This document shows, in pieces, positions 22,537 through 37,613 of a DNA stretch of 39,740 bases. Within the stretch, counting starts at the first letter, position 1. Each line of letters begins with the position of its first letter. The stretch lies in contig VGBZ01000021.1 of assembly GCA_016870275.1 (NCBI GenBank), positions 1-39,740 on the forward strand. The letters are read 5' to 3'. Made by a program: the position numbers and the translations under genes. This DNA is from Actinomycetota bacterium (lineage in GTDB: Bacteria > Actinomycetota > Acidimicrobiia > Acidimicrobiales > Microtrichaceae). Below the pieces are notes generated by a model. That model had not been told where the DNA came from and did not search any database. It saw nothing but the letters and a program-made list of their open reading frames with translations.

Positions 22537-22618
22537 AGCATTCCACGCGTTGGGACCGAATCGACGCAAGATGGACGCTCGGGACCGTCCCGGGGACTGT
22601 GCTGGTGGAGGCCGCAGA

Positions 22619-24010
22619 ATGATCGATGACGACGTCCTCGAGCGGGTGCTCTCAGTGGGTGTGGCCCGTGGCGCGGACTTCGCTGAGGTGTTCGCCGAGG
22701 ATCGCCGTTCCTCCTCGGCGGTCCTCGATGACGCCAAGGTCGAGGAGCTCACCTCGGGGCGGGATCGCGGGGCGGGTGTCCGGGTCGTCACGGGCTCCAC
22801 GACCGGGTTCGCCCACACCTCTGACTTGAGCGAGGCCGGGCTCATCGCCGCTGCCGAGGCGGCCGCAGCGGCGTCGCGTCAGGGCGACGGTGGCGTTCGG
22901 GTGGTGTCACTCGACCGAGTTCGAGCACCGCGACCGAATGACGTGCGGGTGCCACCCAGCGATGTCGCCAAGGCCCGCAAGGTGGAACTGCTCCTCGCAG
23001 CTGACGAGTCCGCTCGCTCGGCGGGTTCGGCGATCACACAGGTGTCGGCCCGCTACGGCGACTCGCAACGCACGATTCTGGTGGCGAACAGCGACGGGGT
23101 CCTCGCGGGTGACGAGCAGGTCAGGACGCTCTTCGCCGTGTCGTGTGTGGCCACCGGCGATGCTGGGATGCAGACCGGTCGGGAGTCCGTCGGCCGAACC
23201 GTCGGGTTCGAACTGTTCGACGAGCACGACGTGAGCGACCTCGCCGCACGCGCTGCTGGGCGGGCGATCACCAAGTTGGCTGCTCGTCCGGCGCCCTCGG
23301 GCGAGATGACCGTCGTCATCGGCCCGGGCGGCGGTGGTGTCATGTTCCACGAGGCCTGCGGGCATGGGCTCGAGGCCGACTTGGTGGCCAAGGGGGCGTC
23401 GGTGTTCGCCGGTCGAGTCGGTGAGCAGGTGGCCAGTCCACTGGTGACACTCGTCGACGACGGGACCATAAGTGGGGAGTGGGGATGCTTCTCAGTCGAT
23501 GACGAGGGTCGCCCGGCACAGCGGAATGTGCTGATCCAAGACGGTGTGCTCGTCGACTACATGTGGGACGCACTCCGGGCCCGGGCCGAGGGGCGCCCGT
23601 CGAGCGGGAACGGTCGGCGTCAGGGCTATCAGTACCTCCCGATGGTCCGCATGACCAACACCTACCTGATCGGCGGTCAGTCGGATCCCGAGGCGATCGT
23701 TGCCGACACCCCCTCGGGCGTGTATGTGGCACACCTCGGCGGCGGTCAGGTCAACACCGCCAACGGCGACTTCGTCTTCGGGATGACCGAGGCCTACCTG
23801 ATCGAGGACGGTCGGATCACCGAACCGCTCCGGGAGGGCAACCTCATCGGTAACGGCCCGGCGGTCCTCGAGGCCATCGATGCCGTGGGCAACGACTTCG
23901 AGATGGGGCCGCCGGGCACCTGTGGCAAGGACGGTCAGGGCGTACCTGTGGGCGACGGTGTCCCGACGCTCCGGGCGCACGGGCTCACGATCGGTGGCAC
24001 CGCAGGCTGA
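22619..24010 (+). CDS. tldD: TldD metalloprotease subunit
   Basis: A 463-aa zinc protease subunit. The ATG at 22619 follows GGTGGAGG at good spacing. The motif MFHEACGHGLEADLV holds the HExxxH zinc site (His244, Glu245, His248) that defines TldD; later GTCGKDGQGVPVGDG carries the C-terminal Cys region. TldD pairs with TldE/PmbA to form a chamber in which only TldD is catalytic. The pair degrades unfolded peptides and removes leader peptides from some ribosomal natural products. Two tldE paralogs lie downstream on the same strand, but a lipoprotein gene on the opposite strand interrupts the set, so they are not one simple operon. Confidence 0.96.
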   Translation: MIDDDVLERVLSVGVARGADFAEVFAEDRRSSSAVLDDAKVEELTSGRDRGAGVRVVTGSTTGFAHTSDLSEAGLIAAAEAAAAASRQGDGGVRVVSLDRVRAPRPNDVRVPPSDVAKARKVELLLAADESARSAGSAITQVSARYGDSQRTILVANSDGVLAGDEQVRTLFAVSCVATGDAGMQTGRESVGRTVGFELFDEHDVSDLAARAAGRAITKLAARPAPSGEMTVVIGPGGGGVMFHEACGHGLEADLVAKGASVFAGRVGEQVASPLVTLVDDGTISGEWGCFSVDDEGRPAQRNVLIQDGVLVDYMWDALRARAEGRPSSGNGRRQGYQYLPMVRMTNTYLIGGQSDPEAIVADTPSGVYVAHLGGGQVNTANGDFVFGMTEAYLIEDGRITEPLREGNLIGNGPAVLEAIDAVGNDFEMGPPGTCGKDGQGVPVGDGVPTLRAHGLTIGGTAG

Positions 24011-24098
24011 GCACCGGCAACGCGCCTCTCATCGACAACACGGGCAACGAGTTCACTGCGTCGCGTGCGTTGGAGTGCTGCAGCCGAGGTGACGCGAC

Positions 24099-24124
24099 CG
24101 GGCCCCCGCCGGAGCGGGGGCCCG
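24099..24124. terminator. Strong GC hairpin between convergent tldD and lipoprotein genes
   Basis: An 11-bp perfect stem, CGGGCCCCCGC (24099-24109) with GCGGGGGCCCG (24114-24124), closes a CGGA tetraloop. It lies between the stop of tldD (24010) and the stop of the minus-strand lipoprotein (24152). There is no U-tract, but the stem is very stable in both directions. Confidence 0.75.
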
Positions 24125-24151
24125 TGCGGAAATGTGGTGCTGCCTCGAAGG

Positions 24152-24691
24152 TCAGTTCTTGTCGTCGGGCATCATGCCGTCCATGCCGTCCATGCCGTCC
24201 ATGCCGTCCATGCCGTCGGGCATCATGCCGTCCGGCATACCAGCTCCTCCGAACGCAGAACCGGCGAGCTCCTGGAGTGAATCGGTGGCCTTCTGGCTGC
24301 ACTCCTGCACAGCGGTGGACAACGACGGGTCCTCGATCAGCGTCGAGACGAGGCCGGCTGCGTCCTGTGCGAGCTGCTGGGCCTGCTTGGACAGTTCCTC
24401 GCTGCTGCTGGCGTCCTTGTTCTTGACGGCCTCCTCGACGCTGGCCGCGAGTTCCTCGACCTGATTGCAGTACTTGTCGACCTCGGCGTTGCCGGTGTTG
24501 CTGCTGCCGGAGCTCGAACCGCCGGACTCAGAGCCGCCGGACTCAGAGCCGCCGGACTCGGAGCCGCCGGACTCAGAGCCGGAGGCTGCGGTCGTCTCCG
24601 AACCGCTCTCTGAGGAATCGCTGCCACCGCAACCGGTGACGAGGGCGGTGGCACATGCCAACGCAGCGAGGAGGATGAGGAATCGTTTCAT
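24152..24691 (-). CDS. Repeat-rich small lipoprotein with Met-Asp-Gly tail
   Basis: A 179-aa lipoprotein. The ATG at 24691 follows AAAGG and the signal peptide MKRFLILLAALACATALVTGC ends in a lipobox Cys. After the Cys comes a low-complexity Ser/Gly/Glu spacer with four SGGSE units. A helical domain (about 65-145) starts VDKYCNQVEELAASVEEAVK, contains CSQKATDSLQELAG and has two Cys that could form a disulfide. The tail has repeated GMD units between MPDGMMPDG and MMPDDKN. Met- and Asp-rich tails can bind metals, but no function is established. It is convergent with tldD and divergent from the first tldE (193-bp gap). It could be a periplasmic sensor or binding protein. Confidence 0.85.
   Translation of the reverse strand: MKRFLILLAALACATALVTGCGGSDSSESGSETTAASGSESGGSESGGSESGGSESGGSSSGSSNTGNAEVDKYCNQVEELAASVEEAVKNKDASSSEELSKQAQQLAQDAAGLVSTLIEDPSLSTAVQECSQKATDSLQELAGSAFGGAGMPDGMMPDGMDGMDGMDGMDGMMPDDKN
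24173..24217 (-). repeat. Five 9-bp units encoding (GMD)n
   Basis: CATGCCGTC is repeated five times in perfect tandem on the plus strand, giving Gly-Met-Asp repeats in the lipoprotein tail. The unit length keeps the frame. Confidence 0.95.
24519..24578 (-). repeat. Four 15-bp units in the lipoprotein spacer
   Basis: Four copies of a 15-bp unit (CCGCCGGACTCAGAG with one variant base in the third) encode the Ser/Gly/Glu spacer after the lipobox. Confidence 0.93.
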
Positions 24692-24866
24692 GGGACACAA
24701 CCTTTGTCGGGGGCGTCGGGACCGATCTCCGCCCCGGGCCGCATATTCACTTGTGGTGGACGTCGAGATCCTAGGTGGCAGAGCGGGTGCTCCGAGTGGT
24801 TTCCAGTTCGTCGTGATTCGCCGCTCGATGATCTCGGGGCCCTGCGGCTCATCAGGTTTCCGGTGC

Positions 24867-24877
24867 TGTGGCAGGCT
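24867..24877 (+). promoter_or_regulatory. TGTGGCAGGCT element 7 nt before the tldE GTG
   Basis: CAGGCT (24872-24877) sits where a leaderless -10 is expected. The surrounding 13-mer GCTGTGGCAGGCT (24865-24877) recurs exactly before moeA (32226-32238), also 7 nt from a GTG start. Confidence 0.45.
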
Positions 24878-24884
24878 GCGTCTC

Positions 24885-26234
24885 GTGAACGCCGAGGAAC
24901 TCGAGACGATCGGCGATCGAATCACTGACCGGGCATGCGGAGACGAACAGATCGAGGCGGTGTTGGCCTGGTCCCGCGATGCAGAGGTCCGGGTTCACCA
25001 GGGAGAGGTCGAGCACTACGTCGATGCGACCAGCGTCGGTGTGGGTGTGCGAGTGGTCCGCCACGGCCGTCAGGGGCTCTCCTGGACGGGCCTTCTCGAC
25101 GACGACGCCCTCAGTCAGTGCATCGATGACGCCCGGGACAACGCCGAGTTCGGGTCCCATGACGAGCACGTCGGTCTCGCTGAACCCGACGGCGTGGCGG
25201 TGAGCGAGGTCGATCTGTACGACCCTCGGATCGAATCCGTCACGGCGGAACAGCGGATCTCGCTCGCCGCTGAGCTCGAGCGGATCCTGCTCGCTGCTGA
25301 CGACCGGATGGTCGGCGTCGAATCGGCCGACTACGCCGACTCGAGGTCGGTCATGTCGATCGTCACCACGACCGGCATCCGACGTTCCTCGGTGGAGTCG
25401 TCGGCCTACCTCGGAACCTGGGCGCTCGCCGCAGAGGACGACGACGTCACGACGGGATTCGGCTACTCCGTCGGTCGCAGCGCCGAGCTGCTCGATCCCG
25501 GTTCGGCGGCTGCGGAGGCGGTGGAGCGTTGCGTGGCGGCCTTCGGTGCCCGCAAGGTCGCCGGCGGTCGGGCGACGGTGATCCTCGATCCGTACGTGAC
25601 CTCGCAGTTCCTCGGGGCGGTGGCCGAATTGCTCTCGGGCGAAGCCGCAGTGAGGGGTCGCAGCCCGTTCGCCCGACGGCTGGGCGAGCCCGTGGCGGCC
25701 CCGTCGGTCACGCTCTACGACGACCCTCTCGATCCGTTGGCGCCAACGGCCTCCGACGTCGACGGAGAAGGACTGGCGTGCCGTCGGGTTCCGCTCATCT
25801 CCGGTGGGTCGCTCGAAGGATTCCTCCACAACGCCTACACCGCCCGGGTGGCCGGAGTCGTCTCGACCGGATCGGCGAGCCGCCCGACGCACCGATCCGG
25901 GCCGGGTGTCGGTCCGCGATCCCTGCGGTTGGCGCCCGGCGATGGCGACCTCAGCGACGTCCTCGGTCGTGTCGGCGAGGGAATCCTGGTCCGTGAGGTC
26001 TCCGGCATGCACTCGGGTGTGAACCCGATCTCCGGCGACCTCTCGGTGGGAATCGAAGGTCGGATCGTCCGGGGAGGCGCCCCGTCGCAGCCGATCCGGG
26101 AGATGACGATCGCCTCGACCATTCCGAGGATGCTCCTCGACGTGGTCGACATCGGTGCCGACCTGACCCGGTTTCCGTGGGAGTCCGCCGGGGTGACGTT
26201 GGCGATTGCCGACGTCACCGTCTCGGGCACCTGA
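24885..26234 (+). CDS. pmbA: TldE/PmbA-family protein, copy 1
   Basis: A 449-aa TldE/PmbA-type subunit starting at the GTG at 24885. It shares the family scaffold with the next gene: ARDNAEF near residue 85, RGRSPFARRLGE in the middle, DGEGLACRRVPLISGGSLEGFLHNAYTA, then SGMHSGVNPISGDLSVGIEG and IREMTIASTIPRMLLDVVDIG near the end. It has no HExxxH, as expected for the non-catalytic partner of TldD, where the chamber is completed but zinc is not bound. It ends in VTVSGT, nearly identical to the end of copy 2. About 120 bp separate it from copy 2 on the same strand. The two are clearly paralogous but well diverged. Confidence 0.93.
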   Translation: MNAEELETIGDRITDRACGDEQIEAVLAWSRDAEVRVHQGEVEHYVDATSVGVGVRVVRHGRQGLSWTGLLDDDALSQCIDDARDNAEFGSHDEHVGLAEPDGVAVSEVDLYDPRIESVTAEQRISLAAELERILLAADDRMVGVESADYADSRSVMSIVTTTGIRRSSVESSAYLGTWALAAEDDDVTTGFGYSVGRSAELLDPGSAAAEAVERCVAAFGARKVAGGRATVILDPYVTSQFLGAVAELLSGEAAVRGRSPFARRLGEPVAAPSVTLYDDPLDPLAPTASDVDGEGLACRRVPLISGGSLEGFLHNAYTARVAGVVSTGSASRPTHRSGPGVGPRSLRLAPGDGDLSDVLGRVGEGILVREVSGMHSGVNPISGDLSVGIEGRIVRGGAPSQPIREMTIASTIPRMLLDVVDIGADLTRFPWESAGVTLAIADVTVSGT

Positions 26235-26354
26235 CACGCCCGACCGACCGACCGACGGGCACGGCATCACCGACACAACGAGCGAGACGACTGCGAGGAA
26301 CAACCGGGATGGAGCGAGGGAAGTGACCGACGAGAAGTGCACAGGACTGAGATC

Positions 26355-27734
26355 GTGACGAACGCAACCCCGAGCGCAGTGGCCGCTGCGGCTCAGGAGC
26401 AGCTGATGGACCTCGCCGGGTCGCTCCGGGATCGGGCCCGACCGGGCGAGGAGGTGGAGGTGATGCTCGCCGAGGGCCGGAGCACGTCGGTCAAGGTCTT
26501 CGCCGGATCAGTGGAATCCCTCACCGTGGCCGGTGGTGCCGGCGCCGGCATCCGTGTCCTCAGCGGTGGTCGGCAGGGCTTCGCCCACTGCGGATCACTC
26601 GAGTTGGACGTGCTCGAAGCCACGCTGGCGGAGGCCCGGGACAACGCCGAGTTCGCCGAACCCGACGAGTGGAACGGCCTGGCTGTTCCAGATGGGGTGA
26701 CGCCGGTCGTCGTCGACTCATGGAACGACGCCGTCGTGGACACACCGACCGATCGGAAGGTGGATCTCGCAGTGGACCTCGATCGGCGGGTGACCTCCGT
26801 TGATCCCCGGGTCACGTCGGCTCGGGTGACGTCGTACTCCGACGGTTGGGCGGTGCACGCACTGGCCAGCACACAGGGAGTGGAGGTCTCGACGCGAGGC
26901 GCCTCGTGTGGGATCGGTACACAGCCGCTCGCCCGAGCCGGAGATGAGACTCAGATCGGTTGGGGGAGCGACGCCGCCCGGGAACCGGACGCCCTCGACG
27001 TCGACCGGGTCGTATCGGAGGCCGTCGAGCGGGCGACGCAACTGCTCGGCGCAACCAAGCCCCAGTCGTCCCGACGGACGATCCTGCTCGAGCCCCGACT
27101 CGCAGCCACGCTGCTCAGCGTCGTGAGCGGGATGCTGTGCGGCAGTCGAGTTGTCAAGGGTCGGAGCCCGTTCGCGGATCGTCTGGGGGAGCAGGTCGCC
27201 TCGGATCTGCTCACCATGACCGACGACCCGACACGGATCGAGTCACTCGCAGCCGAGAGCCACGACGGCGAGGGGTTGGCGTGTCGTTCCAATCCGCTGA
27301 TCACCAACGGGGTCCTCGACCGATTCCTGCACGACTCGTACTCGGGGCGTCGCTCCGGTGCGGCGTCAACTGGATCGGCCGTGCGCGGGACCCGCTCCCT
27401 CCCGGGCGTCGGCGCTCAACTGCTGGTGGTGAAACCCGGCGATCGATCCTTCGACGAACTCGTCGCCTCAATCGATCACGGCATCTACGTGACGTCGTTC
27501 AGCGGCCTGCACTCTGGGATCAATGCCACCTCGGGAGACTTCTCGGTCGGAGCCGAGGGAATCCTGATCGCCAACGGTGCCCTGTCCACGCCGGTGCGAG
27601 AGGTGACCGTGGCGTCCACGATCCAGCGACTCCTCCTCGACATCGTCGAGGTGGGTGGCGACTTCGAGTGGCTGAACGGTGGCGATGGTGCCTGCTCGCT
27701 CGTCATTGCCGATGTGGCGGTCTCCGGCACCTGA
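26355..27734 (+). CDS. pmbA: TldE/PmbA-family protein, copy 2
   Basis: A 459-aa second TldE/PmbA paralog. I prefer the GTG at 26355, preceded by AGGA eight nucleotides upstream; an in-frame GTG at 26337 would add six residues. Motifs parallel copy 1: ARDNAEFAEPDEWNGL, KGRSPFADRLGEQ, DGEGLACRSNPLITNGVLDRFLHDSYSG, SGLHSGINATSGDFSVGAEG and REVTVASTIQRLLLDIVEVGGD, ending VAVSGT. No HExxxH is present. The N-terminus carries an extra Ala-rich helix (AVAAAAQEQLMDLAGSL). Conservation of the core suggests it is functional rather than decaying. Two TldE copies beside one TldD could allow alternative heterodimers with different substrate entry. Confidence 0.92.
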   Translation: MTNATPSAVAAAAQEQLMDLAGSLRDRARPGEEVEVMLAEGRSTSVKVFAGSVESLTVAGGAGAGIRVLSGGRQGFAHCGSLELDVLEATLAEARDNAEFAEPDEWNGLAVPDGVTPVVVDSWNDAVVDTPTDRKVDLAVDLDRRVTSVDPRVTSARVTSYSDGWAVHALASTQGVEVSTRGASCGIGTQPLARAGDETQIGWGSDAAREPDALDVDRVVSEAVERATQLLGATKPQSSRRTILLEPRLAATLLSVVSGMLCGSRVVKGRSPFADRLGEQVASDLLTMTDDPTRIESLAAESHDGEGLACRSNPLITNGVLDRFLHDSYSGRRSGAASTGSAVRGTRSLPGVGAQLLVVKPGDRSFDELVASIDHGIYVTSFSGLHSGINATSGDFSVGAEGILIANGALSTPVREVTVASTIQRLLLDIVEVGGDFEWLNGGDGACSLVIADVAVSGT

Positions 27735-30693: not shown

Positions 30694-31050
30694 TCAGTCG
30701 CTCGCAGATCCGCCGCTCCCGGAGTTGCTCCCGGTGTTGCTGCTGGAACCACCATCGGAGGCCCCTCCGCTCGACGTGCTCTCCGTGGACGCCGTCGAAC
30801 TGGCGGTCTCCGACGTGGAACCTGACTCGGTTCCTGACAAGGTGCTCGAACTGCTCGAACTGCTCGAGGAGGAGCGGCTGTCGTTCTTGTAGAAGCCTGA
30901 GCCCCGGAACGAGATCCCGACCGGCGAGAACACCTTGCGGATCTCGGCGCTGCCACACGCCGGGCACTCTGCGGGCGGGTCCTCGTCGAAGCCCAGCTGG
31001 GCGTCGAAGACATGGCCGCAGTCACGGCACTTGAATTCATAGAGAGGCAC
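30694..31050 (-). CDS. FmdB-type zinc ribbon protein with Ser-rich tail (Ruc-like)
   Basis: A 118-aa protein. The GTG at 31050 follows AGGAG. It opens VPLYEFKCRDCGH with a zinc ribbon of two CxxC pairs (Cys8/Cys11 and Cys29/Cys32), then KVFSPVGISFRGSGFYKNDSR. The remaining 60 residues are a disordered Ser/Gly/Thr tail, including a ten-residue Ser run. This layout, and the GSGFY-x-x-DSR junction, match the mycobacterial Rv0991c protein Ruc, described as a redox-regulated chaperone whose zinc ribbon controls an otherwise disordered tail. That protein is also encoded near galU. I therefore call it Ruc-like; chaperone function here is inference from family and context. Confidence 0.85.
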   Translation of the reverse strand: MPLYEFKCRDCGHVFDAQLGFDEDPPAECPACGSAEIRKVFSPVGISFRGSGFYKNDSRSSSSSSSSSSTLSGTESGSTSETASSTASTESTSSGGASDGGSSSNTGSNSGSGGSASD

Positions 31051-31202
31051 CGGGGCACGCTCCTGATTTCGGGCTGTTGGGTTCAACCGGGTTCGGCGTG
31101 GAAAGCGAGCGTACTTCGGGGGGTGCTGGAGACCCGAGGCCGGTCCTCGAGCGTCGGAGCGAGAGGCACAACTACCTACATCGGATCGACTCGGCGAACC
31201 GG

Positions 31203-31304: not shown

Positions 31305-32186
31305 GTGAGCACAGTCAAGAAGGCGGTCATCCCGGCTGCGGGACTCGGAACCCGGTTCCTCCCGGCGACCAAGGCCCAGCCCAAGGAGATGCTCCCGGTC
31401 GTCGACAAGCCGGCGATCCAGTACGTCGTGGAGGAGGCGGTGGCCGCCGGGATCGATGACATCTTGATCATCACCGGTCGCAACAAGCGTTCGCTCGAGG
31501 ATCACTTCGATCGGAACTTCGAACTCGAACATCAGCTCCGCACGAAGGGAAAGACCGGCGATCTCGCCGATATCGTGGAACTCGCCGAGCTCGCTGACAT
31601 CCACTTCGTGCGTCAGGGCGAACCGCTCGGGCTCGGTCACGCAGTGTCGGTTGCTCGCAAGCACGTCGGCCGGGAGCCCTTCGTGGTCATGCTCGGCGAC
31701 GACATCATGAACCGCAACTCCTTGGTCCTCGCTGACATGATCAAGACGCACGACGAGACCGGGGCCAACGTGGTCGCACTGATGGAGGTGCCGATCGAGG
31801 ACATCTCGGCCTACGGGTGTGCCGCAGTCACCGAGCGGGATGGTGCGCGCTGTCGGATCACGGAGGTCGTCGAGAAGCCGAGTCCCGACATGGCCCCATC
31901 GAACCTCGGCGTCATGGGTCGTTACCTGTTCACCCCGAGCATCTTCGACGAACTCGAGCATGTGACCCCCGGGGTCGGTGGGGAGATCCAGCTCACCGAT
32001 GCCATCGCCCGACTGCTCAACGATGACGTGGTCCTCGGGTACGTCTTCAGCGAGGGTCGCTTCGACATCGGCAAGAAGCTCGACTACCTGCGGGCGACTG
32101 TCGAGTTGGCTCTCGAACGCGACGACCTCGGCCCGGAGTTCCGCAAGTTCCTGATCGACCTGGTGCGCCGGGAGGGCCTGGCCTGA
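31305..32186 (+). CDS. galU: UTP-glucose-1-phosphate uridylyltransferase
   Basis: A 293-aa nucleotidyltransferase that makes UDP-glucose from UTP and glucose-1-phosphate, feeding cell-wall glycans and glycolipids. The GTG at 31305 is preceded by GATTGAGG. Diagnostic motifs are AAGLGTRFLPATKAQPKEMLPVVDKPAIQYVVEEA (residues about 9-44; substrate and UTP binding), GRNKRSLEDHFD, RQGEPLGLGHAV, LGDDIM (metal site) and LGVMGRYLFTPSIFD. Length is typical. It is divergent from the Ruc-like gene and is followed by moeA after 59 bp containing a hairpin. The order galU-moeA-membrane protein is known in corynebacteria and mycobacteria. Confidence 0.96.
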   Translation: MSTVKKAVIPAAGLGTRFLPATKAQPKEMLPVVDKPAIQYVVEEAVAAGIDDILIITGRNKRSLEDHFDRNFELEHQLRTKGKTGDLADIVELAELADIHFVRQGEPLGLGHAVSVARKHVGREPFVVMLGDDIMNRNSLVLADMIKTHDETGANVVALMEVPIEDISAYGCAAVTERDGARCRITEVVEKPSPDMAPSNLGVMGRYLFTPSIFDELEHVTPGVGGEIQLTDAIARLLNDDVVLGYVFSEGRFDIGKKLDYLRATVELALERDDLGPEFRKFLIDLVRREGLA

Positions 32187-32201
32187 GTACGGGATGCACC
32201 C

Positions 32202-32227
32202 GCCGCCCACCCTCGCCGGCGGGCGGC
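32202..32227 (+). terminator. Hairpin between galU and moeA
   Basis: GCCGCCC (32202-32208) and GGGCGGC (32221-32227) form a perfect 7-bp stem with a 12-nt loop, 16 bp after the galU stop and just before the moeA promoter-like element. It may separate the two transcription units. Confidence 0.5.
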
Positions 32228-32238
32228 TGTGGCAGGCT
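32228..32238 (+). promoter_or_regulatory. TGTGGCAGGCT element 7 nt before the moeA GTG
   Basis: CAGGCT (32233-32238) takes the leaderless -10 position. The 13-mer GCTGTGGCAGGCT (32226-32238) is identical to the one before the first tldE. Confidence 0.45.
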
Positions 32239-32245
32239 CGTCGCC

Positions 32246-33490
32246 GTGATCCCGCTCGCCGAGGCCCAGGACCACCTGCGACGGCACCTCGGTCCCCTCG
32301 ACCACGTCGAGCTGCCTCTCGCTCGGGCCTCAGGTGCGGTGGCGGCCGCTCCGGTTCGGGCACTGGTGTCCTCGCCACCGTTCGACAACAGCGCCGTCGA
32401 CGGTTACGCCCTTGGTGAGGTCACCGGTGAGCGATGCCACATCGCCGGGTCGGTTGCGGCGGGGGAGTTCAGTGACGAGCCCCTCACTCCTGGCACCGCC
32501 CGGAGGATCACCACCGGTGCTCCCGTTCCGCCGGGGACCTTCGCTGTGGCGATGCAGGAGCGGGCCCGGGTGATCGACGACGGAGCCGGCGTCGTGTTCG
32601 ATTCGCTACCTGCGGCCGGTGAGAACATCCGTCGCGCCGCCGAGGACTTCGCCGTCGGTGACATCGTGATCAACGAATCTCAACTCCTCGGCCCAGCGCA
32701 CCTCGGCCTCATCGCTGCTGCCGGGTACGGTTCCCTGAGCGTGGTCCGCCAGCCGGTCGTCGGGGTGTGTTCCACCGGCGCCGAACTCGTCGAACCCGGC
32801 GCCCCGATCAGCGGGGGTCAGATTCCCGACACCAACCGGATCGTCATCGCCGCCCTGCTCGCCGCTGCAGGAGTGGAGTGCGTCGACCTGGGACGAACCG
32901 GGGACGAACCCGCACGGGTGCGGGCGCACCTCGCTGAGTCGACGGACCGGGTCGACGTGATCGTCACCACCGGCGGTGTGTCGGTTGGTGAGTTCGATCC
33001 GGTACGGGCCGTTCTCGAGGGCACCGATGGCGCCCGCTGGATGCAGGTGGCAATCAAGCCGGCCAAGCCCTTTGCCTTCGGAACCATCGACGGGGTCCCA
33101 GTGCTGGGCCTCCCCGGCAACCCGGTCAGCGCCGTGGTGGCGTTCGAACTCTTCGTCCGGCCTGCGCTGTCGTTGCTCGGTGGTGGATCGTTCGAGATGA
33201 CACCGACCCGGCCGGCGCTCGCCGCCGAACGGTTCCGGCGCCGCCCCGACGGGAAGGTGCACTACGTGCGGGTTCGGACCGTCGAGCAGTCCTCCCGGGA
33301 CGAACCCGGATCACCGAGCCGGGTGGCGCCGGTGGCCGCGCAGGGCTCCCACCAACTCGCCGGACTGGCGCTCGCTGACGGCCTCGGCGTCCTCGCCGAC
33401 GGCGATGGTCTCGATGTCGGCGAGACCATCAACGTGCTGCCGTTGCGCTGGGCGCCTCGAACGACGAGCCGGACGGAGGCCCGGCGGTGA
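32246..33490 (+). CDS. moeA: MoeA-type molybdopterin molybdenumtransferase (gephyrin/Glp-like)
   Basis: A 414-aa protein of the MoeA/gephyrin E-domain family, which inserts molybdate into adenylated molybdopterin. The key motifs are all present: PPFDNSAVDGYAL, RITTGAPVPPG, GENIRRAAEDF, CSTGAELVEPG, DTNRIV, TTGGVSVGEFD and IKPAKPFAFG...GLPGNPVSA. The start is the GTG at 32246, seven nucleotides after CAGGCT. Its stop overlaps the moaA start (TGATG), so the two are coupled. In corynebacteria a MoeA paralog called Glp, encoded next to galU, binds FtsZ and the membrane protein GlpR. Synteny raises the same possibility here, but the intact motifs and moaA/moaC neighbours argue that the enzyme function is kept. 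Confidence 0.94.
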   Translation: MIPLAEAQDHLRRHLGPLDHVELPLARASGAVAAAPVRALVSSPPFDNSAVDGYALGEVTGERCHIAGSVAAGEFSDEPLTPGTARRITTGAPVPPGTFAVAMQERARVIDDGAGVVFDSLPAAGENIRRAAEDFAVGDIVINESQLLGPAHLGLIAAAGYGSLSVVRQPVVGVCSTGAELVEPGAPISGGQIPDTNRIVIAALLAAAGVECVDLGRTGDEPARVRAHLAESTDRVDVIVTTGGVSVGEFDPVRAVLEGTDGARWMQVAIKPAKPFAFGTIDGVPVLGLPGNPVSAVVAFELFVRPALSLLGGGSFEMTPTRPALAAERFRRRPDGKVHYVRVRTVEQSSRDEPGSPSRVAPVAAQGSHQLAGLALADGLGVLADGDGLDVGETINVLPLRWAPRTTSRTEARR

Positions 33491-34512
33491 TGTCCTCGCC
33501 GTTGGTCGACGGGTTCGGACGGATCCACCGCGACCTCCGGATCTCGGTCACGGACCGATGTGACTTCCGCTGCGACTACTGCATGCCCGAGGAGGGTCTC
33601 GAGTGGCTCGAGCGATCCGAGATCCTCACGTTCGAGGAGATCGAGCAGGTGGCGAGGATCTGTGTCGAGCGCCTCGGGGTCGAGTCGATCCGCCTCACGG
33701 GCGGCGAGCCGACCGTACGCGCCGGGTTGGTGGACCTCGTCGGTCGACTCTCGACGCTCGATGTGGATCTGGCACTCACGACGAACGGGGCCCGACTCGC
33801 ATCGATGGCGGAACCGTTGAGAGCGGCTGGCCTCCGTCGGGTGAACATCTCGCTCGACACGCTGCAACCCGACCGTTTCGAGCGGATCACCCGACGCGAC
33901 CGACTCGAGGATGTCCTGGCCGGAATCGACGCAGCGATCGGTGTGGGACTCGATCCGGTCAAGGTCAACTGCGTCGTGGTTCGCGGTGTGAACGACGACG
34001 AGGTCGTCGATCTCGCGACGTTCGGCCGTGACCGGAACATCACGGTGCGTTTCATCGAGTTCATGCCCCTCGATGCTGCTGGGAACTGGGACCGATCATC
34101 TGTGGTCGGCCTCAACGAGATCGTGTCGAGGATCCACCAGGTGCATCCGCTCGAACCATCGACCCGTGGTCACCAGCCGGCGAGTCGATTCCGCTACCTC
34201 GACGGCCGAGGTGAGGTGGGCGTCATTCCGAGCGTCACTGCGCCGTTCTGTGGAGACTGTGATCGGTTGCGTCTGACCGCCGATGGTGAGCTCCGGGCGT
34301 GCCTGTTCTCCACCGAGGGCACCGACCTGCGGCCGTGGTTGCGGCCGGAGGAGAGCGACTCCGGTCAGGGCCCGGATCGTGGCCACGGCGGCCTCGACGA
34401 TCAGCTCGAGGCCGAGGTCCGTCGGGTGGTGGCCGGGAAGTGGGCAGGTCACGGCATCTCCAGAGTCGATTTCGTCCGACCTCGGCGCTCGATGTCGCAG
34501 ATCGGCGGCTGA
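33490..34512 (+). CDS. moaA: GTP 3',8-cyclase MoaA
   Basis: A 340-aa radical SAM enzyme that rearranges GTP in the first step of molybdenum cofactor synthesis. The ATG at 33490 overlaps the moeA stop (TGATG); a GTG directly before it is also possible. The radical-SAM cluster motif is CDFRCDYC (Cys24, Cys28, Cys31), with RLTGGEPTVRAG and NISLDTLQPDRF following. The second [4Fe-4S] site is FCGDCDRLRL...LRAC. The protein ends in Gly-Gly, the conserved C-terminal GG needed for activity in this family. An insert rich in Asp/Gly/His lies after WLRPEE. MoaC, the partner enzyme that processes the MoaA product, is the next gene. Confidence 0.96.
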   Translation: MSSPLVDGFGRIHRDLRISVTDRCDFRCDYCMPEEGLEWLERSEILTFEEIEQVARICVERLGVESIRLTGGEPTVRAGLVDLVGRLSTLDVDLALTTNGARLASMAEPLRAAGLRRVNISLDTLQPDRFERITRRDRLEDVLAGIDAAIGVGLDPVKVNCVVVRGVNDDEVVDLATFGRDRNITVRFIEFMPLDAAGNWDRSSVVGLNEIVSRIHQVHPLEPSTRGHQPASRFRYLDGRGEVGVIPSVTAPFCGDCDRLRLTADGELRACLFSTEGTDLRPWLRPEESDSGQGPDRGHGGLDDQLEAEVRRVVAGKWAGHGISRVDFVRPRRSMSQIGG

Positions 34513-34534
34513 GCGTCTGATGGTGGCGCCCGCC

Positions 34535-34540
34535 TAGAAT
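34535..34540 (+). promoter_or_regulatory. TAGAAT -10 hexamer, leaderless start of moaC
   Basis: TAGAAT ends 7 nt before the ATG at 34548, in the 35-bp gap after moaA. This suggests moaC also has its own transcript. Confidence 0.5.
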
Positions 34541-34547
34541 CCCTCCG

Positions 34548-35048
34548 ATGCCGGAACACGCCCTGACCCACCTCGATCCGCTCGGGCGAGCTCGCATGGT
34601 CGACGTCACCCCGAAGGATCCGACGCACCGCCGCGCTTTGGCCCGCGGCCGGGTCCTCATGGAGTCCGAGACCACCTCGTTGGTCGCCCGCGGTGCAGTT
34701 TCCAAGGGCGATGTCCTCTCGGTGGCCCGAGTCGCAGGAATCCAGGCCGCCAAGCGGGCTGCGGACCTGATTCCGCTCTGTCATCCCCTGTTGGTCGGTT
34801 CGGTCCTGGTCAATTTCCGCATCGAGGACGCCTTCATCGAGGTCGAGGCGCAAGTGGATACGGTGGACCGGACCGGCGTCGAGATGGAGGCGCTGACGGC
34901 GGTGACCGTCGCCTGCCTGACCATCTACGACATGTGCAAGTCCGTCGACAGGACCATGGAGATCACCGAGATCGCCCTGTGGGAGAAGACCGGCGGGCAA
35001 GCCGGCACGTTCCGCCGGGAGGAACACCTCGCCGACGACGCCCCCTGA
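34548..35048 (+). CDS. moaC: Cyclic pyranopterin monophosphate synthase
   Basis: A 166-aa enzyme that converts the MoaA product, 3',8-cyclo-dihydro-GTP, into cyclic pyranopterin monophosphate. The family signature is intact: RMVDVTPKD at the N-terminus, AKRAADLIPLCHPLLVG in the middle (catalytic His), GVEMEALTAVTVACLTIYDMCKSVDRTMEI with the catalytic Asp and Lys, and LWEKTGG near the end. Length is typical. It is preceded at 7 nt by TAGAAT, so it may be leaderless. The later steps (MoaD, MoaE, MoeB) are not in the window, so the moco set is split across the genome or incomplete. Confidence 0.96.
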   Translation: MPEHALTHLDPLGRARMVDVTPKDPTHRRALARGRVLMESETTSLVARGAVSKGDVLSVARVAGIQAAKRAADLIPLCHPLLVGSVLVNFRIEDAFIEVEAQVDTVDRTGVEMEALTAVTVACLTIYDMCKSVDRTMEITEIALWEKTGGQAGTFRREEHLADDAP

Positions 35049-35058
35049 CACGGCGTCG

Positions 35059-35074
35059 TGGCCGGTGCCGGCCA
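35059..35074 (+). terminator. Hairpin downstream of moaC
   Basis: TGGCCG (35059-35064), loop GTGC, CGGCCA (35069-35074) form a perfect 6-bp GC-rich stem 11 bp after the moaC stop. There is no T-run. Confidence 0.45.
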
Positions 35075-35152
35075 ACGGGAGCCACCCTTCAGGCGATCGG
35101 CATGGACATGTGGTGTCCGCTCGGTGGACGTCCGGGTGGCCTAACGTGGGGA

Positions 35153-35194
35153 ATGGATGACAACCGTGTAGTTCGTCACCGGTTTGTAATGTAG
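35153..35194 (+). CDS. Possible 13-codon leader ORF upstream of the SepX/GlpR-like gene
   Basis: ATG at 35153 to TAG at 35192-35194 encodes 13 residues beginning MDDNRVVRHR. TAACGT (35142-35147) lies 5 nt upstream of its ATG. It overlaps the proposed -35 of the next gene, so both cannot easily operate as drawn. It may be chance. Confidence 0.2.
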   Translation: MDDNRVVRHRFVM

Positions 35195-35212
35195 TTCCGG
35201 GCGGACTAGGTT
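35184..35212 (+). promoter_or_regulatory. Promoter of the SepX/GlpR-like gene
   Basis: TTGTAA (35184-35189) and TAGGTT (35207-35212) are 17 bp apart, predicting a start near 35219 and a leader of about 70 nt. A 6-bp hairpin, CCACCC-CCCA-GGGTGG (35220-35235), would sit at the very 5' end of the RNA. Confidence 0.5.
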
Positions 35213-35287
35213 GCGGTCACCACCCCCCAGGGTGGCCATCCGTCAGGGCAGGCGGTCGTCCAGAGGGGCGAAAGGACCATCGAGCAC

Positions 35288-35914
35288 ATGACGATCTCCA
35301 CGCTGGTACTGCTGGCGCTCGCCGCGGTCTGGGCAGTCGTTCTGGCACCCGAGTTCCTGCGCCGTACTGGCTCGTTGCGAACTGGTGACAGCGTTTCGAC
35401 GTTCGCCCGGCAGTTGTCGTCACTCGGGCGGAACGTCGCCGCTCGGCGCCCGGATGCCGGAAGCGCCTTCGGCCAGGGTCTGGCGAACATCCCGCTGGCC
35501 CGTTCGGCCGAGGTCGTCGACCTCCGCTCTCGTCAGACCGCTGCACCGGCTTCGACCGCTTCGCCGGCGGTTCGCCGTCGCCGCCAGGAGGTGATCGGAG
35601 GGCTCGTTGCTGCTGCAGTGCTGACCCTGTTGTGCACGATCGCGTTCGGTGGAGCGTTCATCGTGGTCCACCTCCTCGTCGACGCACTCCTCGTTGCCTA
35701 CCTGTACCTGTTGTTCCGGTTGGTGAGCGGCACGCCGGGTCGTGCAGCAACGGCAGCGACGAGCGGTGAACGGTCGCTGGAGCATCGGACGACGCCCGTG
35801 ATCGATCTGACTGCTCGACCCTCCGTCGCTGCAGCTCTGTACGACCCCTACGACGACGCCGGTCTGGCCATCACCCGGGTGACGCCGATCCCAGCGCGCC
35901 GCGCCGCCAACTGA
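35288..35914 (+). CDS. SepX/GlpR-like membrane protein
   Basis: A 208-aa membrane protein. The ATG at 35288 follows AAAGGA. It begins with a transmembrane helix (LVLLALAAVWAVVLAPEFLRR) and a short amphipathic stretch, DSVSTFARQLSSLGR. A polar linker leads to an Arg patch (RRRRQEV) and a pair of helices (about 102-142), then a cytoplasmic tail. The helix ending in AVWAVVLAP-x-FLRR followed by STFARQL resembles the N-terminus of Streptomyces SepX and corynebacterial GlpR, membrane proteins of the division machinery that interact with SepF or the MoeA-like Glp. Synteny with galU and moeA supports this; in mycobacteria the equivalent place holds Rv0996. This is inference from pattern and gene order and needs a profile search. 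Confidence 0.65.
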   Translation: MTISTLVLLALAAVWAVVLAPEFLRRTGSLRTGDSVSTFARQLSSLGRNVAARRPDAGSAFGQGLANIPLARSAEVVDLRSRQTAAPASTASPAVRRRRQEVIGGLVAAAVLTLLCTIAFGGAFIVVHLLVDALLVAYLYLLFRLVSGTPGRAATAATSGERSLEHRTTPVIDLTARPSVAAALYDPYDDAGLAITRVTPIPARRAAN

Positions 35915-35981: not shown

Positions 35982-36055
35982 GGGGGTGTAGCTCAGTTGG
36001 CTAGAGCGCTTCGGTCGCATCGAAGAGGCCAGGGGTTCGAATCCCCTCACCTCCA
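35982..36055 (+). tRNA. tRNA-Ala (anticodon CGC)
   Basis: A 74-nt cloverleaf without encoded CCA. The acceptor stem GGGGGTG pairs with CACCTCC and contains the G3-U70 wobble that is the alanine identity element. D-stem GCTC/GAGC, anticodon stem CTTCG/CGAAG around loop GTCGCAT (U33, anticodon CGC), a five-base variable loop, and T-stem AGGGG/CCCCT around TTCGAAT are all complete. Discriminator base is A. It reads GCG codons, which are frequent in such a GC-rich genome. Confidence 0.95.
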
Positions 36056-36200
36056 CTCCTCGCAGTGGTCTCGTCGACGCCGTCGGGTCCACGGCGGGCC
36101 TGAACGATGCGAGTTGCGCTCGTGGTGACGGCCTCCGGCAACTCGCCGGCGGCGTCGCTCCGCTGCGATTCGATCTGCTTCAGAGAGTCGCCCGGCGGTC

Positions 36201-37124: not shown

Positions 37125-37613
37125 TCAGCTCCACGTGCCGATGATCGGCTGGGCCAGTCGGAGGCGCTCTTCGTAGTGCTCCTCCCACGGGAGCCAGCCC
37201 CGCCGGTCGGGCCAGACGAACTGCTGCATCCGGTACTCGCCACCCTCGTTGATCAGGTCGAGTGACGGGAACATGCCGCCGCACTCGACCGGGTCGACGT
37301 CGAGCAGGCAGCAGCGCAGGTCGCCGTCGAGCAGACCGGAGAACAACTGGCCCACCGGCAGGCTGACGCCGGCACGGTGCTGGTCGGCGATGATCCCGAG
37401 CAGGCCCCGGGCTGCGACCGGCCGGAGACCGATGATGACCACCTCGGGCGACCCGAACGTGGGCTCGAAGCCGATCGTGTAGGTGTAGGACGGCTGCGGT
37501 TCGGGTTCCTCCACCGCGGGCACCGGTTCGGCGGCCCACCCCTGCTCCTCGATGATCCAGCGGATCTTGTCGAGGTGGTCCATGTTCCGGTCGGGAAACA
37601 CGTCGTCGGTCAC
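37125..37613 (-). CDS. DUF4262-type protein
   Basis: A 162-aa cytoplasmic protein resembling DUF4262. The GTG at 37613 overlaps the upstream ligase stop (GTGA), so translation is coupled. It has DHLDKIRWIIEEQGWAAEPV at the N-terminus, then SYTYTIGFEPTFGSPEVVIIGL, the strand-turn pattern typical of the family, and GIIADQHRAGVSL. CCLLDVDPVECGG provides a Cys pair and the C-terminus is Trp-rich (FVWPDRRGWLPWEEHYEERL). The family has no known function. Coupling to an acyl-CoA-ligase-like gene is the only clue. An internal ATG at 37583 is an alternative start. Confidence 0.82.
   Translation of the reverse strand: MTDDVFPDRNMDHLDKIRWIIEEQGWAAEPVPAVEEPEPQPSYTYTIGFEPTFGSPEVVIIGLRPVAARGLLGIIADQHRAGVSLPVGQLFSGLLDGDLRCCLLDVDPVECGGMFPSLDLINEGGEYRMQQFVWPDRRGWLPWEEHYEERLRLAQPIIGTWS

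Follow-up and report, generated by a model that had tools for sequence, protein, structure and literature searches.

Molybdenum cofactor genes and a divergent SepX/GlpR relative share a conserved neighbourhood in Acidimicrobiia, probably without forming a complex

The window, by which we mean the whole stretch of 39,740 nucleotides (nt) analysed here, covers positions 1 to 39,740 of contig VGBZ01000021.1 from a member of the Microtrichaceae (Actinomycetota; Acidimicrobiia; Acidimicrobiales; GenBank assembly GCA_016870275.1). It contains a locus in which galU is followed by the molybdenum cofactor (Moco) genes moeA, moaA and moaC and then by a gene for a 208-residue membrane protein related to the division proteins SepX and GlpR. 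The original prediction, made from the letters of the DNA, proposed that these genes are coupled or closely spaced and that one MoeA may both make cofactor and contact the division machinery in this lineage. Open reading frames and family scans bear out the arrangement. The dual role was not upheld: as set out below, this MoeA is probably an ordinary enzyme and SepX is retained in genomes that have no MoeA. The features of the locus are as follows.

30694-31086, minus strand: fmdB-like zinc-ribbon gene, divergent from galU (Pfam Zn_ribbon_8, E 3.9e-14)
31305-32186, plus strand: galU, UTP-glucose-1-phosphate uridylyltransferase (TIGR01099, 360.9 bits, cut-off 326.8)
32246-33490, plus strand: moeA, 414 residues, GTG start (MoeA_N, MoCF_biosynth and MoeA_C, all above their Pfam gathering scores)
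33487-34512, plus strand: moaA, GTP 3',8-cyclase (TIGR02666, 366.6 bits, cut-off 284.05)
34548-35048, plus strand: moaC, cyclic pyranopterin monophosphate (cPMP) synthase (TIGR00581, 197.9 bits, cut-off 141.5)
35288-35914, plus strand: gene for the SepX/GlpR-family membrane protein, 208 residues (NCBIfam SepX/GlpR profiles, hydropathy, AlphaFold2 model)
35982-36056, plus strand: tRNA-Ala(CGC), a frequent 3' neighbour of sepX (tRNA scan; Rfam)

The moeA and moaA frames overlap by 4 nt, 35 nt separate moaA from moaC, and a gap of 239 nt precedes the membrane protein gene. The tRNA was the sole match in an Rfam scan of the locus, and a promoter and terminator scan for the sigma-70 type found nothing exceeding shuffled sequences. 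In these families MoaA and MoaC produce cPMP, MoeA inserts molybdate and GalU makes UDP-glucose. The MoaA and MoaC encoded here would be expected to make cPMP, and the MoeA to insert molybdate, an activity predicted from its residues and from what is known of the family.

The resemblance of the 208-residue protein to SepX/GlpR, which the original prediction had noticed in the N-terminal helix, is supported by profile searches and by a family alignment. Four SepX/GlpR models of NCBIfam matched the protein (E 9.9e-12, 1.1e-8, 5e-8 and 2.4e-6), and no other NCBIfam family and no Pfam family did so at E values up to 1. The scores of 27.6-45.3 bits lie under the curated cut-offs of 110-160 (45.3 against 150 for the best model), and by NCBI's rule the protein is neither SepX nor GlpR. 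Hydropathy and a weak AlphaFold2 (AF2) model, with a mean predicted local distance difference test score (pLDDT) of 65.7 and helices at residues 3-28, 36-51, 93-120 and 123-147, predict a membrane helix at the N-terminus and two more further on, separated and followed by low-confidence stretches. An alignment of 41 family members has one shared tryptophan in the first membrane helix and nearly invariant residues at L11, L19, P21, P55, R98, R99 and Y138. Many of these members also carry an S-x-x-x-F-x-x-x-L-x-x-L stretch beyond the first helix, which corresponds to AF2 helix 36-51.

Three membrane helices and two disordered cytoplasmic regions are described for GlpR of Corynebacterium glutamicum (PMC10522489) and, with the regions largely disordered and the helices the most conserved part, for SepX of Streptomyces venezuelae (PMC8748795). 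The 208-residue protein shares this architecture, with the cytoplasmic side of its regions predicted, and it has the family's position 3' of galU and moeA and 5' of tRNA-Ala(CGC). It differs from S. venezuelae SepX in length, 208 against 344 residues, and reaches 45 bits with the nearest SepX model. It also differs from the GlpR proteins of Corynebacteriales, in which the first cytoplasmic region is acidic and the second basic: the isoelectric points (pI) of its two predicted regions are 11.9 and 8.6, and that of the first region is 4.05 in C. glutamicum GlpR (PMC10522489). The first-region pI was below 5 in only one of 82 Acidimicrobiia rows, with a median of 12.0; these rows belong to a set of 121 SepX rows, include some that share a genome, and the count skips any row in which the first region was short or fewer than two hydrophobic segments were seen. 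Because its first region is basic rather than acidic, we regard the protein, as judged from sequence, as a divergent SepX/GlpR relative and not as GlpR. From its homology and position, its most likely role is that of a membrane scaffold for the division machinery at the septum.

The window's moeA is intact, as predicted, with three domains above the gathering scores and the Escherichia coli letter at 12 of 13 tested catalytic positions; the exception is K275, which is glutamine here. Four of the tested positions, D259, K275, P298 and P301, we take to be active-site residues. The other nine (D59, T100, R137, D142, E188, D228, K279, R350 and S371) have been mutated in E. coli MoeA according to the titles of PDB entries. 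We aligned the MoeA of 79 of 80 Acidimicrobiia loci (L072, with 12 unknown letters, was left out). All 79, like the window MoeA, keep D59, T100, R137, D142, E188, D228, D259, P298, R350 and S371, while K279 is kept in 78 and P301 in 73, both being present in the window. In C. glutamicum Glp and four mycobacterial-like Glp proteins, D228 is altered in 5/5, D259 in 4/5, and K279 is histidine in 5/5. Five other rows above the NCBI Glp cut-off retain D228 and D259 and have Q or R at K279. The search for a second moeA that the original prediction had called for found a single full-length MoeA in the genome (96.3% complete). One other match was rejected as a second MoeA: it is 86 residues long (E 5e-4) and perhaps belongs to a CinA-like protein.

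Profile scores and phylogeny set the window MoeA apart from Glp. Its best full-length NCBI model is the E. coli-type NF007960 (316.1 bits, below the cut-off of 440), and it also falls below the cut-off of the MoeA model NF050098 (280.4 against 560 bits) and of the Glp model NF045515 (281.9 against 475). It matches E. coli MoeA at E 9.1e-66 and C. glutamicum Glp at E 5.8e-30. In an 87-row tree that included 26 of the 79 Acidimicrobiia MoeA, and whose bootstrap was still just short of convergence (0.989), the window MoeA lies within the Acidimicrobiia clade (support 100/100), and Glp forms a separate clade with the MoeA paralogues of Glp-bearing genomes (100/99). Grouping Acidimicrobiia with Glp was rejected by the approximately unbiased (AU) test at a cost of 85 log units (p 0.0002); the group tested did not include the class-mates L159 and L160. 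From the tree position and the AU rejection it follows, as far as these sequences go, that the window moeA diverged before Glp arose by duplication and is as closely related to Glp as to the sister enzymes of Glp.

The features by which Glp is recognized are two Pro-rich hinges and an FtsZ-binding loop from M361 to Y369 (PMC10522489). The loop is not present in the window MoeA, and the Glp pocket residues V338, L343, L360, M361, Y369, L370 and F414 correspond to R, A, T, S, S, R and P. The domain IV hairpin is longer than that of Glp and unlike it. The place of the second hinge was deduced from the domain limits that PMC10522489 gives; there the window reads VVRQPVV and Glp YPRPR. At the place of hinge 1, in a gapped alignment, GPLDHVELP stands against VAPEPVR in Glp. 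An AF2 monomer of the window MoeA (pLDDT 92.3) superposed on E. coli MoeA chains with query template modelling (TM) scores of 0.80-0.85 and a root-mean-square deviation (rmsd) of 2.8-3.7, and on Glp with 0.62-0.65 and 5.9-6.5. A second aligner gave nearly equal Z scores, 34.9 for E. coli MoeA and 33.6 for Glp, with rmsd of 3.5 and 6.0. The model thus appears nearer to the closed form, a weak indication from an AF2 monomer compared without a Glp control model. The window MoeA resembles E. coli MoeA (1fc5, 1g8l) in its domains, its active-site letters and, as far as the model shows, a probably closed form, and differs in Q at K275, in its longer domain IV hairpin and in its galU and sepX neighbours. 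We rejected Glp as an identity for this protein on clade, NF045515 score, loop and second hinge; judged by its residues, it is probably an ordinary molybdopterin molybdotransferase.

Among 118 genomes of the order, MoeA was found in 103 (a single match in 100 of them), MoaC in 114 and SepX in 113 at E values up to 0.01. In the high-quality subset SepX was found in 94 of 95 at the same limit, a few at E above 1e-4. Twelve genomes had SepX and no MoeA. We dropped G063, which has a MoeA fragment, and G001 and G070, which are 84 and 80% complete and contain MoaA. The nine that remain (G008, G022, G033, G045, G074, G083, G090, G110 and G116) are 89-97% complete, span five families and have SepX matches of E 5.7e-11 or better. 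Neither Pfam nor a class-specific profile found MoeA in them, apart from short matches in G033, G074, G083 and G110 (81-106 of 400 positions, E 4.8e-6 to 2.5e-7), which we take as other MoCF-domain proteins. MoaA was found in 0/9 of them, and in six of ten other genomes in the same search, which also gave no MoaA from G055, G077, G048 and G127. Three families agree fully on the absence of MoeA (f22 in 3/3, f33 in 2/2 and f45 in 2/2 sampled genomes). MoaC is present in 9/9, in two as fragments at contig ends; four genomes of the order have no MoaC, one of which, 63% complete, has MoeA. SepX thus persists where the Moco pathway does not, and we conclude that MoeA tracks the pathway and that SepX does not track MoeA.

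Some gene arrangements in these genomes can be recorded alongside. A tRNA-Ala(CGC) lies within 100 nt of sepX in 4/8 sepX regions scanned from the MoeA-less genomes. In seven of the nine (L215-L221), fmdB adjoins moaC in 7/7 regions. Locus L149, from the dropped genome G001, reads galU-moaA-moaC-sepX and has no moeA at the position where it normally lies.

We rejected the idea of a locus special to this genome. Of the 80 MoeA loci, 62 were testable in having moaC with more than 900 nt beyond it, and in 61 of these sepX shares the strand of moaC and lies no more than 1.5 kb from it (the exception is L082). Counted by genome, the start of sepX is within 2.5 kb of moaC in 91/109; distance counts omit G032, G055, G077 and G114, whose best SepX matches have E values of 1.9e-4 to 0.0046, and keep G071 (1.1e-4). 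Of the 33 loci with at least 2.5 kb of sequence upstream of galU, 30 have fmdB there at a distance of up to 3.5 kb. Downstream, tRNA-Ala(CGC) was found in 39/43 scanned loci, in 28/43 within 100 nt of the sepX end by coordinate comparison (in L112 on the other strand).

Outside the class, many Actinomycetota loci have moaC between moeA and sepX, in the order galU-moeA-moaC-sepX, and in many cases the genome has only one MoeA. The order galU-glp-moaC-mogA-like-rimJ-like-sepX occurs in a genome of 9.7 Mb, with Glp and SepX both above NCBI cut-offs. A genome that we label Streptomyces-like (L230) has SepX downstream of galU, glp and moaC, and one that we label mycobacterial-like has galU-glp-rimJ-like-glpR. 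The original prediction had named rimJ, not moaA or moaC, as the usual intervening gene. This is to be corrected for moaC, which is no exception there. We saw moaA between moeA and sepX in Acidimicrobiia loci only and not in the linked loci of other classes; among class-mates outside the order, L158 has moaA there and L159 and L160 do not. In a phylum sample of 149 genomes, SepX was found in 66 at E values up to 1e-6, of which 46 had one MoeA match, 15 had two, one had three and four had none. The neighbourhood is phylum-wide, fmdB / galU-moeA-(moaA)-moaC-(mogA-rimJ)-sepX-tRNA-Ala, and the window carries its Acidimicrobiia form. Other variants were seen as well: galU-moaC-...-sepX without moeA in L225-L228, and galU-sepX alone in L229 and L231.

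We propose, with a probability of about three in four, that the Moco genes and SepX share this neighbourhood and probably form no complex here, MoeA acting as an ordinary enzyme and SepX independently of it. SepX would work without MoeA in this lineage, and the Glp-GlpR pair of Corynebacterium would be a later product of two genes that already lay side by side. Several observations weigh against this proposal. The linkage is tight: of the 97 genomes that have both, 73 place SepX no more than 10 kb from MoeA, where simple arithmetic would place a random gene pair of a 3-Mb genome that close in less than 1%; neighbours that stay together may work together. MoeA is kept by relatives of the MoeA-less genomes in f9 (G065, G103) and f31 (G031, G081), and some absences may therefore be assembly gaps. 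K275 is glutamine in the window MoeA and in all 79 Acidimicrobiia MoeA, and many of the latter have hydrophobic or aromatic letters at some Glp pocket positions. The genome's FtsZ ends in DDEFDVPSFLK, so that a fitting tail is present; EFDVPSFLK is compatible with MoeA as enzyme only or as a dual protein, since other division proteins also bind the FtsZ tail. Finally, the part of SepX in division is itself something that we infer for this lineage.

A partly overlapping explanation is that slow rearrangement or shared expression preserves an old housekeeping neighbourhood, and that the SepX relative need not be a division protein. Consistent with this, fmdB, moaC and tRNA-Ala(CGC) are constant neighbours as well, and SepX homologues have little in common beyond their membrane helices. 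We nevertheless consider it rather unlikely: the presence of SepX in nearly all high-quality genomes, together with the conserved stretch beyond the first helix, argues for a kept function, and SepX/GlpR relatives above the NCBI cut-offs occupy the corresponding place in other genomes.

Less probable still is an ancestor-like state in which one MoeA makes cofactor and also binds SepX, and perhaps FtsZ, with Glp as its specialized descendant. This idea draws on the single MoeA with catalytic letters that adjoins SepX in most of the class sample, on the fitting FtsZ tail, and on a pattern at the second hinge. Using P-x-P-[RK], chosen after viewing the alignment, we found the pattern outside Acidimicrobiia in 35/44 locus-linked MoeA versus 3/89 unlinked ones. 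Within Acidimicrobiia, however, only 4/33 linked MoeA have it and 29 do not; eight rows there had no linkage verdict, of which four were left out and L033, L042, L065 and L088, with galU upstream, were counted as linked. When kinship was allowed for, the trend came down to about 5 independent contrasts, 3 for and none against (median p 0.25), and was not significant. Two unlinked MoeA of one family, L276 and L277 (G142 and G156; f74), also keep the hinge, and the galU-sepX locus of G156 has no moeA. We therefore treat the association of hinge and linkage as a lead, not a result. In addition, the window MoeA has neither the FtsZ-binding loop nor the second hinge, nine genomes have SepX without MoeA, and in 24/97 genomes SepX was not seen within 10 kb of MoeA (in 22 the two are on different contigs, some of which may be contig breaks). 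As a separate observation, six unlinked MoeA in G205, G215 and G236 (L197, L198 and L200-L203) are without a Pro-rich hinge 2.

That the SepX match reflects membrane-helix composition and the protein is unrelated is very improbable: all four NCBIfam scores are far under their cut-offs and some homologues give low matches to unrelated membrane families, but the protein itself matches no family except the SepX models, and the family profile finds matches in this neighbourhood phylum-wide, often 5' of tRNA-Ala(CGC).

The dual-function idea fits better outside the window's lineage, in actinobacteria with a single sepX-linked MoeA that has most catalytic residues and the second Pro-rich hinge of Glp. 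When K275 and K279 are disregarded, 29/34 linked, non-Glp MoeA outside Acidimicrobiia have all eleven remaining catalytic letters. The case is sharpest in two genomes, G178 (L113, L151; one contig, 100% complete) and G199 (L121, L152). Each has one full MoeA, and G199 has an additional 52-residue match below the cut-off. With scores of 579.6 and 537.9 bits these MoeA exceed the Glp cut-off of 475, and they keep 11 and 12 of the 13 catalytic letters, with K279 replaced by Q and R, respectively. In both genomes MoaA is present, moeA adjoins moaC and sepX lies within 2 kb; galU was seen beside moeA in G178 and not in G199. With the profile of the family their SepX proteins give E values of 1.9e-17 and 8.9e-12, and that of G178 reaches 102 of the 150 bits required by the nearest NCBI model. 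A MoeA serving today as both enzyme and division scaffold in such genomes is conceivable from these sequences, though we hold it to be doubtful, and we lowered our estimate because K279 is replaced. If it were true, moonlighting would have been the first stage of repurposing, and only the mycobacterial-corynebacterial branch would have lost D228 and D259.

The window locus resembles the Glp-GlpR system of C. glutamicum in that the genes for a MoeA homologue and for a membrane protein with three helices lie near each other, and in an FtsZ with a conserved C-terminal tail (PMC10522489). It differs in its intervening moaA and moaC, and its MoeA differs from Glp in being the only copy, in retaining 12/13 catalytic letters, in having no FtsZ-binding loop and, in the model, in lying nearer to the closed form. 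For the C. glutamicum proteins, PMC10522489 gives affinities of 5.5 nM for Glp with GlpR and 4.7 uM for Glp with FtsZ. In the published account Glp is a duplicate moeA that has probably lost its enzyme function, and bacteria with Glp carry at least two copies (PMC11733289); taking NCBI's model as the definition of Glp, G178 and G199 do not fit this rule. The neighbourhood suggests another order of events, in which the adjacency of moeA and sepX, with a single working MoeA, preceded the partnership. The locus thereby points to genomes and lineages in which the switch from metabolic enzyme to cytoskeletal scaffold could be dated. Acidimicrobi- is mentioned in none of the 20 papers listed of 35 that a search of the open PubMed Central literature found; the authors of PMC10522489 may have seen GlpR there.

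Several minor observations were made along the way. At L304-L313 there are tandem MoeA gene pairs, in most of which the second gene lies in an open frame of some 640 residues or longer, and some of these pairs sit before moaA and moaC; they resemble a pair of archaeal MoeA that includes a fused domain, discussed in PMC11733289. Elsewhere in the window, three consecutive PmbA/TldD-type metallopeptidase genes lie on the plus strand at 22550-27734, and a gene for a DUF4262 protein on the minus strand at 37125-37598 adjoins that of an AMP-binding enzyme.

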